From the IMG/VR virus record IMGVR_UViG_3300046459_000148, positions 1-33,701 of that record: a stretch of DNA of 33,701 bases. One strand, written 5' to 3'. The notes beneath the pieces are model-generated. The model did not search any database. It was not told where the DNA came from and worked only from the letters and a program-made list of their open reading frames with translations. Each line of letters starts with the position of its first letter. The stretch's first letter is position 1. This document shows positions 9,596 through 24,961 of the stretch, piece by piece. Origin of the DNA: a virus. The translations under genes and the position numbers were made by a program.

Positions 9596-9613
9596 GTCCC
9601 TGCCCTACCCTGC

Positions 9614-9640
9614 AAAAACCCGGCCGCGGCCGGGTTTTTT
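9614..9640. terminator. Bidirectional terminator at convergent gene ends
   Basis: A near-perfect palindrome, AAAAACCCGGCC-GCGGCCGGGTTTTT, has an A-run and a T-run on opposite sides. It lies between the rightward Acb2-like gene and the leftward recombination operon and can end both transcripts. Confidence 0.92.
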
Positions 9641-9984
9641 CATCGCTGCGCGGCGATCGCGGCGCGCCTTCGCGCCATTTCCGCGACCAACCATTCGACC
9701 GCGTCGTCCGGATTCCCTAGTTCGCCCGTTACTCGCCGGCGCGCATTCATCGCGCCGGCCTGGCGCATAGTGATTTCGACGGCGCCGGCATCGACCGCCA
9801 GCGCGCGCTTACTGAGCGCGATATCGTAATGGCTGCCGCTCGTCTTCTGCGGATCCTGCCACCAGCGGCGCGCGACGCCGATCCGGCCGGCCATTTCGTG
9901 CAATTCCGCGTCGGTATCGGCCAGCATATGACACATCACCATGCGCCCAAACCGGGCGCGCATGTCGTCGACATAGACTGTCAT
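9640..9984 (-). CDS. DUF4031 domain protein
   Basis: This 114-residue product begins MTVYVDDMRARFGRMVMCHM. It continues with ADTDAELHEMAGRIGVARRWWQ and SHYDIALSKRALAVDAGAVEIT, which is the full DUF4031 pattern found in many phages and bacteria. The biochemical role is not established; the conserved Asp, Arg and His residues suggest an enzyme or a nucleic-acid-binding role. The start overlaps the preceding stop (ATGA at 9981-9984). It is the last gene of the leftward operon and ends on the terminator. A longer upstream reading would run through the DksA-like gene and is unlikely. Confidence 0.85.
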   Translation of the reverse strand: MTVYVDDMRARFGRMVMCHMLADTDAELHEMAGRIGVARRWWQDPQKTSGSHYDIALSKRALAVDAGAVEITMRQAGAMNARRRVTGELGNPDDAVEWLVAEMARRRAAIAAQR

Positions 9985-18190: not shown

Positions 18191-18649
18191 ATGCGACCGA
18201 AAACTAAAACGCCGTACGCGATCCCGGTCGGCTATGTCGCGCTGCCGGTCGAACCGACGCGCGAAATCATCGAAGCTTTCGAGGCCGCACAGCCGGGCGG
18301 ATTCCTATCGCTGAAGGGTTACGCCGCGCTGGTCAAGACCGCGCGCGACACGTTCGACCCGGAAGCGGACGACCAGGCGCTGGACCCGGCCGCGATCGCC
18401 GCGACAATTCCGCGTCTGACGCTGACGCAAGCGCGCACCGCGGCGGCGTTCTATGCCGGCCTGGCGCTTCGCGACATGCAGGAACTGTTACCCGTCATCC
18501 AGGGCACGACGCCGGCCAGCGCGGCGGCCGTCAAGCGCGCGCGGGATAAACTCCTGGCGTCTGTCGTCGAACACGCCGACGATATCGTCGAAGCATTGCG
18601 CGCGGCGGCGACGACATTAGAAACTGCAAATGACGACGTCGCCGGTTGA
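18191..18649 (+). CDS. Hypothetical protein, mostly helical
   Basis: The protein has 152 residues, with no domain I recognise. It begins MRPKTKTPYAIPVGYVALPVEPT, and the remainder is Ala-rich helices. The ATG at 18191 has AGGA 6 bases upstream; an ATG at 18137 lies inside the preceding gene. The stop TGA is embedded in the -35 (TTGACG) of the next promoter, so the two are packed tightly. Confidence 0.65.
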   Translation: MRPKTKTPYAIPVGYVALPVEPTREIIEAFEAAQPGGFLSLKGYAALVKTARDTFDPEADDQALDPAAIAATIPRLTLTQARTAAAFYAGLALRDMQELLPVIQGTTPASAAAVKRARDKLLASVVEHADDIVEALRAAATTLETANDDVAG

Positions 18650-18674
18650 CGTACTAAAAACGTTTTAGTACCAT
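18646..18674 (+). promoter_or_regulatory. Early promoter P1 with palindromic operator
   Basis: TTGACG, a 17-base spacer and TACCAT form a promoter. The spacer holds ACTAAAA-ACG-TTTTAGT, and the dyad extends to 9-base arms (18651-18671). The same arrangement occurs at 23962 and 24933. A protein on this dyad would sit between -35 and -10 and block or remodel the promoter. Confidence 0.8.
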
Positions 18675-19139: not shown

Positions 19140-21913
19140 CGGAATCGGCGAAGCAATATCCAATGTCGACATGGGCGCGCGCCTATGTCGAAAAATACGG
19201 CCTGTCCGTGTTGCCGTTGCGGCCGAAGACAAAACGACCGTACGCCGACAACTGGGCGAAAAACCCGGACGCCTGGCTGACGGACGCGCAAGCGGCGCAC
19301 GCGCATTACACCAGCAGTCCCGCGGACAATATCGGCGTCGTCCTGGGTCATCCTGGCGGACTGTGTAGCCTGGACATTGACGACGAAGAAAGCGCGCGCC
19401 TGATATTCGCGGAATTCGGCGTCGACCTGGACGACCTGATCGCGAACAATCCGACGATCGTCGGCGCGTCCGGCGGGTTCCGGATCGAATTCCGCGTCCC
19501 GGAAGGGGCGAACCTGACGACGCACGCGCTGGCCTGGCCGACGCAGGACGACCCGAAAAAGCGCTTTACCGTTTTCGAATTCCGCGGCGCCGGCGGCCAG
19601 GACGTTTTCCCGCCGTCGATTCACCCCGACACACTGCGGCCGTACACCTGGCGGACGTCGCCGAAGGACAAGCCGTTCCAGGACCTGCCCGAAGACTTGC
19701 TGTACGCCTGGCAAGGCTGGGACGAAGGGTTCAAGCGCCTTTGCCTCGAGGTCTGTCCCTGGGCGCCGGAACTGACGTACACGGTCCCGCCGGCGAACAA
19801 TGGTCCGGTCGGCGACGGCACGGACACGAAAAGCGTAATCGTCCGCTTCAACGCCGCGCACTCGGTCGCGGAAATGCTCGAGCGCTTCGGATACCAGCAG
19901 CGCGGAAAGCTTTTCCTTTATCCGGGAAGCAAGACGAAGATTCCCGGCGTCCGGATCCTGGACGGGAATCGCGCCTGGTCGCACCACGGAAGCGACCCGA
20001 TGAACGGCACGGAACGCGGCGGCAAGCCGATTAATCCGTTCGACTTGTTCTGTTTTTACGATCACGGCGACAACGTCCCGCGCGCGGTTCGCGCGGCGGC
20101 GCAAGTCCTGGGGATCGCGCACAAGACCAAAGCGGAAAAGGCGGCCGGCCGCTCGAGCGCACCGACGGCGCCGACGTTGCGCGACGGCGAACACCTGGAC
20201 GAAGAAACGGGCGAAATCGCGCCGGCACCGGCGGCGCCCGTCGCGGTTAAATCGACGGTCACGCGCGCCGAACCCGCGGCGCCGGCGTTCGCGGATCCGC
20301 GCCTGCAGTACATGAAATTTCGGCCGCTCGGATACAACAGCGGAACGTATTACTACATGGCGAGCGGGACGCAGCAAATTACCGCGCTGACGGCGTCGCA
20401 ACACTCGAAAGCGAATCTGATCCAGCTTGCGCGCCTGGCCGAATGGGATAAGCATTTCAAGCCGGGCGGGGCGAAGTCCGTCGACTGGGACGACGCGATG
20501 GATACGCTGATGCGCGAATGCGAGTATCGCGGCGTTTTCGATGTTTCGATGCTTCGCGGTCGCGGCGTCTGGTATGACGACGGCCGGATCATGGTTCACC
20601 TGGGCGACCGCGTCCTGGTCGACGGATCCGCGAATCTGCCGGGCCGGGTCGACTCGCGTTATATCTACGAAGCGAAAATCCCGATGCGCGCCAGCGTCGA
20701 CGACCCGCTGACGGCGACGGAAGCGAAGCGGTACGCCGACCTAATCGCAATGGCGGCCTGGGAAAAGCCGCTATCGGCGTCGCTGTGCGCCGGCTGGGCG
20801 GTCGTCGCGCATATCGGCGGCGTCCTGAACTGGCGTCCGCATATTTGGATCATCGGTCGCCGCGGATCCGGGAAAACGCACGTCATGGCGAACATGGTCC
20901 GGCCGGTCATGGGGGATAACGTCCTGCACGTCCAGGGCCACACCAGCGAAGCCGGGATCCGCCAGGACCTGGGCGTCGATTCGCTTCCGGTCCTATTCGA
21001 CGAAGCGGAAGGCGAAGACGCGAAGGCGAACGACCGCCTACAGTCCGTCCTGGCGCTGGTCCGCCAGTCGTCTAGCGAAACCGGCGGGAAAATGCTGAAG
21101 GGCACGACGGCCGGAAAATCGATGCAATTCCAGATCCGGTCCTGTTTCGCGTTTTCGTCGATCACGGCGAACCTGATGCAGCAGTCCGACAAGTCGCGCG
21201 TAACAATCCTCGAGCTAAACCAGGACTATTCGCGCCACGAATTCCAGGCGATCGTCGACGCACAGATCGCGCTTTTGACTGACGACTACGTCCAGCGCTT
21301 CTACGCTCGAGCGCTCGCAATGGCGCCGACGATTCGGAAAAACGCGATCGCATTCGCCGGCGCCGCGGCGACTGCGCTCGGCGAGCAGCGCGCCGGCGAC
21401 CAGCTAGGCGCATTGCTGGCCGGCGCCTATTCGCTCGAGTCCGACGACGAACTGACGGCCGAACAAGCGCGCGCCTGGGTCGAATCGCGCGACTGGTCGG
21501 AACAGCGCGACGAAGCGCGGGGCCAATCGGACGAACAAGCTTGCTGGTCCTACCTGCTACAGCAACGCCTGGCCGTCCAGACGGATCACGGCCGCGAAGA
21601 CCTGCCCGTCGGCGTCTTGCTGGATATCGCGACCGGGAAGTCGAACCGCGGGACCGGCGTCGACCGCCAGCGCGCAGAGGAAATTCTTATGCGCACCGGC
21701 TTTAAGGTTATGCCTGATGAAACGACGGTCGCCGTATCGAATGGCGCCGTCGACATTAAGAAAATGCTCGAGGGGAAACCCTGGGGCGCCGATTGGGGCC
21801 GCGTGCTTAAGCGTTTGCCAGGCGCGGCGCCGTCTTCGGGCATGGTGTATTTCGGGTTCAAGGGAAGCGAAAAGCGCGCGACGCTGGTCCCAATTACTGA
21901 CGCAGAGGAATGA
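19136..21913 (+). CDS. Primase-polymerase / helicase fusion
   Basis: The 925-residue protein has an N-terminal archaeo-eukaryotic primase (prim-pol) domain. It contains LPLRPKTKRPY, the acidic DIDDEESA (about 80-87), and FEFRGAGGQDVFPPSIHP. A linker follows, and then an AAA+/SF3-like helicase with Walker A IGRRGSGKT (about 572-580) and Walker B LPVLFDEAEG (about 616). This combines priming and unwinding for phage DNA replication. The ATG overlaps the HTH gene stop; an upstream start would lie inside that gene. The candidate origin lies about 1 kb downstream. Confidence 0.88.
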   Translation: MTESAKQYPMSTWARAYVEKYGLSVLPLRPKTKRPYADNWAKNPDAWLTDAQAAHAHYTSSPADNIGVVLGHPGGLCSLDIDDEESARLIFAEFGVDLDDLIANNPTIVGASGGFRIEFRVPEGANLTTHALAWPTQDDPKKRFTVFEFRGAGGQDVFPPSIHPDTLRPYTWRTSPKDKPFQDLPEDLLYAWQGWDEGFKRLCLEVCPWAPELTYTVPPANNGPVGDGTDTKSVIVRFNAAHSVAEMLERFGYQQRGKLFLYPGSKTKIPGVRILDGNRAWSHHGSDPMNGTERGGKPINPFDLFCFYDHGDNVPRAVRAAAQVLGIAHKTKAEKAAGRSSAPTAPTLRDGEHLDEETGEIAPAPAAPVAVKSTVTRAEPAAPAFADPRLQYMKFRPLGYNSGTYYYMASGTQQITALTASQHSKANLIQLARLAEWDKHFKPGGAKSVDWDDAMDTLMRECEYRGVFDVSMLRGRGVWYDDGRIMVHLGDRVLVDGSANLPGRVDSRYIYEAKIPMRASVDDPLTATEAKRYADLIAMAAWEKPLSASLCAGWAVVAHIGGVLNWRPHIWIIGRRGSGKTHVMANMVRPVMGDNVLHVQGHTSEAGIRQDLGVDSLPVLFDEAEGEDAKANDRLQSVLALVRQSSSETGGKMLKGTTAGKSMQFQIRSCFAFSSITANLMQQSDKSRVTILELNQDYSRHEFQAIVDAQIALLTDDYVQRFYARALAMAPTIRKNAIAFAGAAATALGEQRAGDQLGALLAGAYSLESDDELTAEQARAWVESRDWSEQRDEARGQSDEQACWSYLLQQRLAVQTDHGREDLPVGVLLDIATGKSNRGTGVDRQRAEEILMRTGFKVMPDETTVAVSNGAVDIKKMLEGKPWGADWGRVLKRLPGAAPSSGMVYFGFKGSEKRATLVPITDAEE

Positions 21914-22213: not shown

Positions 22214-22798
22214 TTAAACCGGGTCGTCGGCATCGTCCAGCAGCGGGAAGGACGCCTGGGGCGGTTCTAGCCCGTTTGCGATCGATTCCGCGCTATCGCC
22301 GACCAGGGCGCCGCGGATTTGGCCCAACTGTGCGGCGTATAGGGCGCGCTGGGCGCCTTCCGGATGGATTTCCGCTATGCCGGCCAGCTTGTCGAGCGCG
22401 AACCGCGTATCGCCCGTTTTGAGGGTCGCGTTAAGCAAATCCTCGAGCGGGACGAATTCGTCGCCGTGCATGTCGACGAAGACCCGCACGTCGTCGACCT
22501 GGCGGACGGGTTTCGCGCCGACCGACCGAATCACGCGCCGGCCGGCCGCGACCGTCGCGCCGTCCGCGCGCGCGCCGTCCGTGCGCCAGCATCGCGTTAC
22601 ACCGTCCGCACCGCGGCGGACCGCGAACGTCATTCCATGCCGGCGACCGTACGCGTAAGCCGCGACCCGCAAGGCGTCGACGCTTTCCGGCGGGACGACG
22701 AAAGACGTCTGGGGTTCCATCAAAGCAAACGGCCAGGTCGAACGCTTGCCAGTCGACGGACCTATTGGAAACGGCACATTCTTATCGATAGGAATCAT
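22214..22798 (-). CDS. Leftward phage protein with IPIDKNVP N-terminus
   Basis: The 194-residue protein begins MIPIDKNVPFPIGPSTGKRSTWPFALMEP, followed by SFVVPPESVDALRVAAYAYGRRHGMTFAVR and VTRCWRTDG. This pattern is common in small phage proteins of unknown role, often near replication or regulatory genes. The C-terminal half (EFVPLEDLLNATLKTGDTRFALDKL onward) is helical and unfamiliar. It is the only minus-strand gene in this region and reads away from the candidate origin, so its promoter must lie in the repeat-rich segment. The ATG has GAGAA upstream. Confidence 0.7.
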   Translation of the reverse strand: MIPIDKNVPFPIGPSTGKRSTWPFALMEPQTSFVVPPESVDALRVAAYAYGRRHGMTFAVRRGADGVTRCWRTDGARADGATVAAGRRVIRSVGAKPVRQVDDVRVFVDMHGDEFVPLEDLLNATLKTGDTRFALDKLAGIAEIHPEGAQRALYAAQLGQIRGALVGDSAESIANGLEPPQASFPLLDDADDPV

Positions 22799-22896
22799 AT
22801 GTTCTCACACACGTTAATGACAGGCACGATCATAAACGACACATAGGCCGCACACAAGAAACGACGACGGTCCGGTCCTAACGCATGCATTTGTAT

Positions 22897-22932
22897 ATGC
22901 TAAAACACATGCTAAAACACATGCAGGCGCAC
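22897..22932. repeat. Tandem 12-bp repeats
   Basis: ATGCTAAAACAC occurs twice in direct tandem and is followed by a half-match ATGCAGGCGCAC. The CTAAAA core resembles half of the early operator. It forms the left edge of the candidate origin. Confidence 0.75.
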
Positions 22933-22949
22933 ATAAAACGACACACATT

Positions 22950-23216
22950 TCCGAAAGTATCGTAAGGAACTATCAGGACGCTTTCGGGAAATGATAGTAA
23001 AAAGTCCTTTAGAATCAGGCGACTATCAGAACTATCGGAACTATCACCGCGTCACAGACAGCTATAAACAGACAGAAAGAGCTATCACACACAATCTCTC
23101 TCTCTCTTAATCTTTATCTATAAAAAGATAGTTATATTGATAGAAACCTTATCCAGTAAGGCTTTGACCGTCTATCGCAAGGGTTTTGTAAGTGATAGAA
23201 ACGCCGCTATCGATAG
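22950..23216. other. Candidate replication origin with CTATCA/TGATAG elements
   Basis: CTATCA or CTATCG occurs at 22970, 23023, 23032, 23041, 23082, 23172 and 23207, and TGATAG at 22992, 23138 and 23193. The copies at 23023, 23032 and 23041 are exactly 9 bases apart. A CCGAAAG...CTTTCGG dyad spans 22951-22987, and an AT-rich, pyrimidine-rich stretch lies near 23093-23140. The clustered iteron-like elements next to a primase gene and in a gene-free gap (22799-23311) fit an origin, though regulatory use is possible. Confidence 0.55.
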
Positions 23217-23311
23217 CTGAAATCCAATAGCGTCCGATGACCGTCGCCAATCTGCCGGGCCAGATTGACGGCGCCGACGGTACAATTTGCGCAATCACTA
23301 GGGACAATCGC

Positions 23312-23944
23312 ATGCTACAAATCGGCGTCAAATCAACACTGGACCAGGTCCTGGCGGCTGTCGGCGTATTCGACGACAAACAGCTACCGTTTGCGGTATC
23401 GAAAGCGCTTAACGACACGGCGAACCAGGCGCGCGACGCCGTGCGGGCGAAAATGCCGTCCAATTTCACGATTCGCCGCGACTGGGTCGTTAAGGGAATC
23501 CAGGTCGTCCCGGCGACAAAGCAAAGCCTGTCGGCGATCGTCTGGTCGCGCGACGATTACATGGCGCTGCAGGAAACGGGCGGCGATAAAACGCCGTTCG
23601 GGAAATACCTGGCGATCCCGCTTCCGGCGGTCAAGCCGACGGCCGGATCCATAGTCCGCAAGGAGGACTATCCGCGCAACATTCCGGCGACGCTGACGGC
23701 GCCAGGGAAGGGCGGACAACTGACGGCCGTAGTTACGATGCGCAACGGGAAAAAGTTCATCGCGCGCGCGTCGGCGAACCCGACGAAAGGGAAGCGCCTG
23801 GAATTGCTGTATTACCTCATGCCAACGGCGCACCTTAAGCCGCGCCTGAACCTCGAGACAATCACGGACCAGGTTGTCGCGGACAAGTTCGCCGACAATT
23901 TCGAAAAGGCAATCGCGCTGGCAATGTCGACAGCGCGTCCGTGA
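23312..23944 (+). CDS. Minor tail protein Z-like (uncertain)
   Basis: The 210-residue protein has a leading helical part (LPFAVSKALNDTANQARDAVRAKMP) and then FTIRRDWVVKGIQV, YMALQETGGDKTPFGKYLAIPLPAV. The pattern of an alpha-helix followed by a beta-rich 'assembly' region resembles gpZ-type or tail-completion proteins. The position, beside the candidate origin and among early genes, is odd for a structural protein. The ATG at 23312 has AGGGAC upstream; a start at 23237 has no ribosome site. Identity is uncertain. Confidence 0.5.
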   Translation: MLQIGVKSTLDQVLAAVGVFDDKQLPFAVSKALNDTANQARDAVRAKMPSNFTIRRDWVVKGIQVVPATKQSLSAIVWSRDDYMALQETGGDKTPFGKYLAIPLPAVKPTAGSIVRKEDYPRNIPATLTAPGKGGQLTAVVTMRNGKKFIARASANPTKGKRLELLYYLMPTAHLKPRLNLETITDQVVADKFADNFEKAIALAMSTARP

Positions 23945-23961
23945 TTTATTCGCCTGGACTG

Positions 23962-23990
23962 TTGACGTACTAAAAGCGTTTTAGTATTCT
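23962..23990 (+). promoter_or_regulatory. Early promoter P2 with palindromic operator
   Basis: TTGACG, a 17-base spacer and TATTCT. The spacer and first -10 base contain ACTAAAA-GCG-TTTTAGT. The first gene starts about 30 bases after the -10, with the leader ending AACAGGGGAATAAA. Confidence 0.85.
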
Positions 23991-24932: not shown

Positions 24933-24961
24933 TTGCAACACTAAAATAATTTTAGTATTCT
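24933..24961 (+). promoter_or_regulatory. Early promoter P3 with palindromic operator
   Basis: TTGCAA, a 17-base spacer and TATTCT. The spacer carries ACTAAAA-TAA-TTTTAGT (24940-24956). Geometry matches P1 and P2 exactly, although the -35 is weaker. Confidence 0.8.

Follow-up and report, generated by a model that had tools for sequence, protein, structure and literature searches.

The iterons of phage lambda are located within a replication gene, and its O protein brings in host DnaB by way of P. In the satellite phage P4, primase, helicase and origin recognition are combined in one protein, alpha, and short repeats are found near an AT-rich region. For most tailed phages, we know of no origin. 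In SaPIs, an iteron origin lies directly downstream of the helicase gene and is read by the C-terminal domain of the helicase, while in SCCmec the C-terminal domain of Cch2 binds direct repeats adjoining its own gene (both according to PMC7581432). A comparable domain layout, Prim-Pol, helicase and a C-terminal winged helix, has been described for PrimPol-PV1; the available text of Kazlauskas et al. (2018, PMC5862659) speculates on origin recognition by this winged helix and draws a comparison to STY4665 (2ipq) and to the helicase of SCCmec. Here, we analyze a repeat-rich, gene-free segment of an uncultivated tailed phage. Judged by its sequence and that of its relatives, the segment is very probably the replication origin of this phage, and its hexamer repeats are probably read by the phage's own primase-helicase.

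Genome context of the gene-free segment

The window, by which we mean the whole 33,701-bp uncultivated viral record analyzed here, is itself a fragment. Two further IMG/VR records, ~99.96-100% identical to it, overlap both of its ends: the first sister contig contributes 8,402 bp that join the window end to the window start, and the second agrees with 7,416 bp of this bridge with 3 mismatches. Window and sister contigs (including L050) close to a map of 42,103 bp; the phage genome is therefore circular or circularly permuted. It encodes a lambda/HK97-type siphophage gene set (terminase, portal, capsid, tape measure, tail tip J, endolysin) and a replication block consisting of a RecE-like exonuclease, an SF2 helicase, an SSB, a dNMP kinase and a 960-aa primase-helicase. 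A 16,353-bp contig (L222) carries an 86% identical terminase, and its stretch ends short of the origin region. Two palindromes were found elsewhere in the window. The near-perfect AAAACCCGGCCGCGGCCGGGTTTTTT at 9611-9642 is a probable terminator closing the tail/lysis operon. The other, TACTAAAANCGTTTTAGTA, occurs exactly at 18645-18670 and 23961-23986 and with 3 mismatches at 24939-24957, where none would be expected by chance; both exact copies stand in a promoter-like context containing TTGACG, directly 5' of small ORFs (18704, 24021), and the palindrome looks like an operator for a phage regulator.

The gene-free segment measures 513 bp, assuming that the tail gene starts at the RBS-preceded ATG at 23312 (Table 1). 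An earlier sequence-only reading of this DNA had described it as a gap of about 510 bp and the longest without a gene; the length holds, but by a simple codon-usage gene call the gap is among the longest and not clearly the longest. On its left, the minus-strand ORF shows better codon usage than an overlapping plus-strand ORF (log-odds +0.15 vs -0.08), and the segment therefore probably sits between divergent genes. The primase-helicase gene, placed about 1 kb upstream by the same reading, is separated from the first hexamer by ~1,057 bp. GC skew had been suggested as a check: its detrended minimum falls near the gap (23483), but there is no sign change, the amplitude is not significant (p = 0.25 by block permutation), and the minimum shifts once the gap is masked. 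For this phage, GC skew does not discriminate and is uninformative as an origin test.

Hexamer repeats around an AT-rich core

Counted on both strands, CTATC[A/G] occurs 11 times within 250 bp (22970-23216), close to the approximately ten CTATCA/CTATCG/TGATAG elements in about 250 bases claimed earlier. When 22870-23240 was dinucleotide-shuffled 2000 times, the motif averaged 0.6 copies with a maximum of 6, and no hexamer of any kind reached 11; the whole window contains only 27 sites. The three elements said to be exactly 9 bases apart start at 23023, 23032 and 23041. The outer base of the hexamers wobbles between T (7) and C (4). Left of the AT-rich core the hexamers lie mostly on the plus strand, whereas orientation on the right is mixed, with the minus strand in excess.

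Other elements of the sequence-only reading were recovered as well. Its AT-rich, pyrimidine-rich tract beside the repeats corresponds to 23090-23146 and contains the lowest-GC 40-mer of the entire 42.1-kb map (15% GC, 23107-23146), flanked by hexamers. Its tandem 12-bp repeats are two copies of ATGCTAAAACAC, and its CCGAAAG...CTTTCGG dyad, with arms at 22948-22957 and 22981-22990, folds better than shuffles (z -4.25). The loop of this hairpin holds one CTATCA and one CGTAAG, the latter being the iteron word of near relatives. A search of the gap against Rfam matched no family, a DNA-level comparison with public phages gave no relatives beyond chance, and no DnaA box (TTWTNCACA, at most 1 mismatch) is present in 22799-23311.

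Table 1. Features of the predicted origin and its surroundings (positions in the window)
Feature	Position	Strand	Basis
Primase-helicase, proposed initiator, 960 aa	19031..21913	+	PF09250, phrog_35358, AF2 model
C-terminal domain, proposed winged-helix iteron reader, aa 806-960	21446..21910	+	AF2, fold matches, covariation
ORF of unknown function, left of predicted origin	22217..22798	-	codon usage
Gene-free segment, 513 bp, with predicted origin	22799..23311	.	ORFs and codon usage
12-bp tandem repeat ATGCTAAAACAC x2	22897..22920	+	repeat search
Hairpin CATTTCCGAAAG..CTTTCGGGAAATG	22946..22993	+	dyad search and folding
Iteron CTATCA	22970..22975	+	hexamer count
Iteron, TGATAG on + strand	22992..22997	-	hexamer count
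Iteron CTATCA, first of three at 9-bp spacing	23023..23028	+	hexamer count
Iteron CTATCG, second of three at 9-bp spacing	23032..23037	+	hexamer count
Iteron CTATCA, third of three at 9-bp spacing	23041..23046	+	hexamer count
Iteron CTATCA, left edge of AT-rich core	23082..23087	+	hexamer count
Pyrimidine run and AT-rich core, predicted unwinding element	23090..23146	.	GC scan and relatives
Iteron, TGATAG on + strand	23138..23143	-	hexamer count
Iteron CTATCG	23172..23177	+	hexamer count
Iteron, TGATAG on + strand	23193..23198	-	hexamer count
Palindromic double iteron CTATCGATAG (23207+, 23211-)	23207..23216	.	hexamer count
Minor tail protein gene, right of predicted origin	23312..23944	+	phrog_1924 E 2e-33; synteny

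Repeat clusters beside the helicase gene in relatives

Searching with the primase-helicase yielded 41 viral loci, and its alignment added 80 more viral loci (partly on the same contigs) and 80 loci from bacterial genomes; together with ten named phages, redundancy removal at 90% left 135 loci, window included. Already in the first set, most loci showed one standout noncoding hexamer cluster, usually right 3' of the helicase gene, with words varying from phage to phage. A significant cluster (score of at least 3) was present in 77 of the 135 non-redundant loci. Its start fell between -100 and +500 of the helicase gene 3' end in 46 of these 77 (5.2% expected if uniform) and within 3 kb in 62. 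Of 74 such clusters in loci from the second fetch, 71 use both strands and 70 lie downstream of the helicase. Same-strand copies in the family are spaced 8-12 bp apart with a mode of 9, as in the window; the lowest 40-bp GC within clusters has a median of 0.17, against 0.57 for the loci, and in 45 of 70 the majority orientation switches across the AT dip. A recurrent layout places two hexamer blocks around a CTCTC/(TA)n element that matches the core in the window, for instance with CTTACR, TTAACR or CTAACR in phages whose helicases are 51-53% identical. In 77 terminase-anchored control loci, clusters appeared in 13, mostly on one strand, and only 4 used both strands; the controls average 7.4 kb in length vs 11.8 kb, and their shortness accounts for part of the difference only. 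The shared type of cluster, mostly found in the same place and rare in the controls, supports the origin suggested by the sequence-only reading.

Synteny extends to the right of the cluster. The same minor tail gene homologue follows it in Pseudomonas phage ZRG1 and in loci L010/L013, L011, L018 and L140, although the predicted origin can be as near to the helicase as about 10 bp or as far away as 4.6 kb. The closest helicase relative (L063, 63%) carries a CTAACR/YGTTAG cluster with 8-bp spacing that flanks an AT-rich core, 4.2 kb away from its helicase gene. In 58 of the 135 loci (43%), no significant cluster was found within the DNA examined, some of these contigs being short; in some of these relatives the origin may lie elsewhere or be too degenerate. 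Bordetella phages with 45% identical helicases have no cluster of the window's kind, and the description of phage phi1422 (PMC3391216) does not mention an origin or intergenic repeats. Pseudomonas phage Turba, which matches the query in the Prim-Pol part only, has no comparable cluster beside its primase. A tandem repeat in L035 (11260-11411, GGGACTGCCACGGCGGGCKATAGC-like unit) contains CTATCG/CGATAG in an apparently coding stretch; the resemblance is probably coincidence, and the repeat was left out of the motif comparison.

A primase-helicase with parts of its C-terminal domain covarying with the motif

The primase-helicase (phrog_35358, E 6e-114) combines an N-terminal Prim-Pol domain (aa 49-221, PF09250, E 1e-21) with an AAA+ helicase C-terminal to it. 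An AlphaFold2 model of the helicase part (aa 401-960, pLDDT 87) shows the Cch/PriRep1/D5 fold in the AAA+ core; its best solved matches are SCCmec Cch (5dgk, Z 15.4), SaPI5 PriRep1 (7ola, Z 13.9), MCMs and poxvirus D5/E5, and 8apl matches with Z 13.2. Cch is not among the PDB sequence hits of the protein at E<=1. For the helicase family, neither a specific Pfam or NCBIfam model nor a described origin was found: DUF927 is not among the listed Pfam matches, DUF5906 matches 15 of 33 members weakly and TIGR01613 (P4 family) two, also weakly. Members are often annotated 'hypothetical protein', even in the cultured phages S-H1, MQ-4 and Acjo_20.

Modelled alone, the C-terminal 155 residues reach a pLDDT of 93 and are predicted to form a winged helix. 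Among the chains compared, winged-helix domains come closest (TcpK with oriT DNA, STY4665, HSF, IRF), with Z of 2.4-4.6, so that these matches are only suggestive; Foldseek gave no match below E 1 for the domain alone.

The words of near relatives, CTAACR, CTTACR and TTAACR, differ from that of the window by one or a few bases and share its outer-base C/T wobble. A strict family consensus fixed before scoring, YGWWRV, fitted just 22 of 74 held-out clusters (30%; ~2.3% expected) and was rejected. The shared motif is therefore loose, and we adopted a looser view in which a conserved YG(T) end is commonly joined to a variable remainder. Motif distance is unrelated to AAA-domain distance (r = 0.00) and to distance over the whole protein (Mantel r=0.05, p=0.18, not significant). 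It correlates with distance in two slices of the C-terminal domain, model aa 531-558 (partial Mantel r=0.177, p=0.0005, surviving a nine-test correction) and model aa 461-505 (r = 0.15, p = 0.004), while model aa 406-440 and 506-530 show no covariation. Covariation between the hexamer motif and parts of the helicase C-terminal domain is weak, yet significant.

Discussion

The data presented here point to an origin with YGATAG iterons that would be recognized by the predicted C-terminal winged helix of the phage's own primase-helicase and opened by this enzyme, which would load itself, a reading to which we assign a probability of roughly 80%. The features of an iteron origin are found together: repeats at regular spacing, an adjoining AT-rich element and an initiator gene close by. 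The helicase itself is the probable reader because relatives share the layout with differently worded repeats. The winged helix would bind the YGATAG repeats (equivalent to CTATCR), which lie ~9 bp apart in arrays and mostly face each other across the AT-rich core. If it behaves like SaPI Rep and SCCmec Cch/Cch2, the helicase would assemble as hexamers on the repeats, melt the core and load itself without a separate loader, and the Prim-Pol domain would prime.

But could another protein read the repeats? Some host factor, or one of the phage's small proteins, might bind this origin and recruit the primase-helicase, as many small ORFs of unknown function lie nearby and the covariation of the motif with the helicase C-terminus is weak. 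We nevertheless consider this unlikely: sequence-similar small neighbours are not common to the relatives, the helicase anchors the whole set, the segment has no DnaA-box match, and proteins of this helicase fold read their own origins. Less likely still is a regulatory region, in which a phage regulator would bind operators and so govern the minus-strand ORF and the tail gene, transcribed divergently. The segment does lie between divergently oriented ORFs, and operator clusters may also be repetitive; however, a promoter scan gave one weak promoter-like site only, the same number as in shuffles, in relatives the cluster comes after the helicase gene while the genes beyond it differ, an AT-rich core within an array fits melting, and it is another palindrome, TACTAAAANCGTTTTAGTA, that has the look of an operator in this phage. 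Very improbable is a site for packaging (pac/cos) or recombination. Intergenic repeats of phages can serve packaging, and a circular or circularly permuted map is seen here, but 4-7 kb separate the segment from the terminase genes, and it is the helicase, not the terminase, that the cluster tracks.

Returning to the origin read by its own helicase, a wider proposal makes speculation enticing: an undescribed, large family of primase-helicases in phages and prophages of proteobacterial and cyanobacterial hosts might use winged helices that co-evolve with adjacent iterons as a fast-diverging origin code. We regard the odds of this as about even. If winged helix and iterons do evolve together, origins, and replication incompatibility between phages, should be predictable from sequence alone. 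From a single gap, the analysis has arrived at a candidate pair of initiator and origin, open to testing, in a helicase family without a specific Pfam or NCBIfam model, and the relatives supply dozens of natural protein-motif pairs for deducing recognition rules.

Finally, we would like to compare this locus with the known systems. Lambda O/ori likewise has iterons adjoining an AT-rich element, but the repeats in the window are intergenic and the helicase is phage-encoded. P4 alpha/ori resembles the proposed system in that a single protein acts as primase, helicase and origin reader, and in its short repeats near an AT-rich region; its motif differs, and TIGR01613 recognizes only the two of 33 family members noted above. 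SCCmec Cch gives the best fold match of the helicase part, whereas the primase is fused to the helicase in the window's protein, unlike in Cch/Cch2, and the putative Cch2 ori has three AAGTG iterons against 11 YGATAG here. SaPI Rep/ori (SaPIbov1 Rep; SaPI5 PriRep1, which matches the helicase fold) likewise has its iterons downstream of the gene for a self-loading (primase-)helicase, whose C-terminal domain reads them. No sequence-level match between SaPI Rep/ori and the window's system was found; here, the carrier is a complete tailed phage, the hexamers occur in both orientations, the motif varies strongly between phages, and the predicted origin lies ~1 kb from the helicase gene. PrimPol-PV1 shares the domain layout, and STY4665 (2ipq) and the SCCmec helicase were matched here too. 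The available portion of PMC5862659 proposes no cognate origins, whereas we propose them for one helicase family; they are candidate targets for the origin recognition by C-terminal winged helices of mobile-element primases on which that paper speculated.
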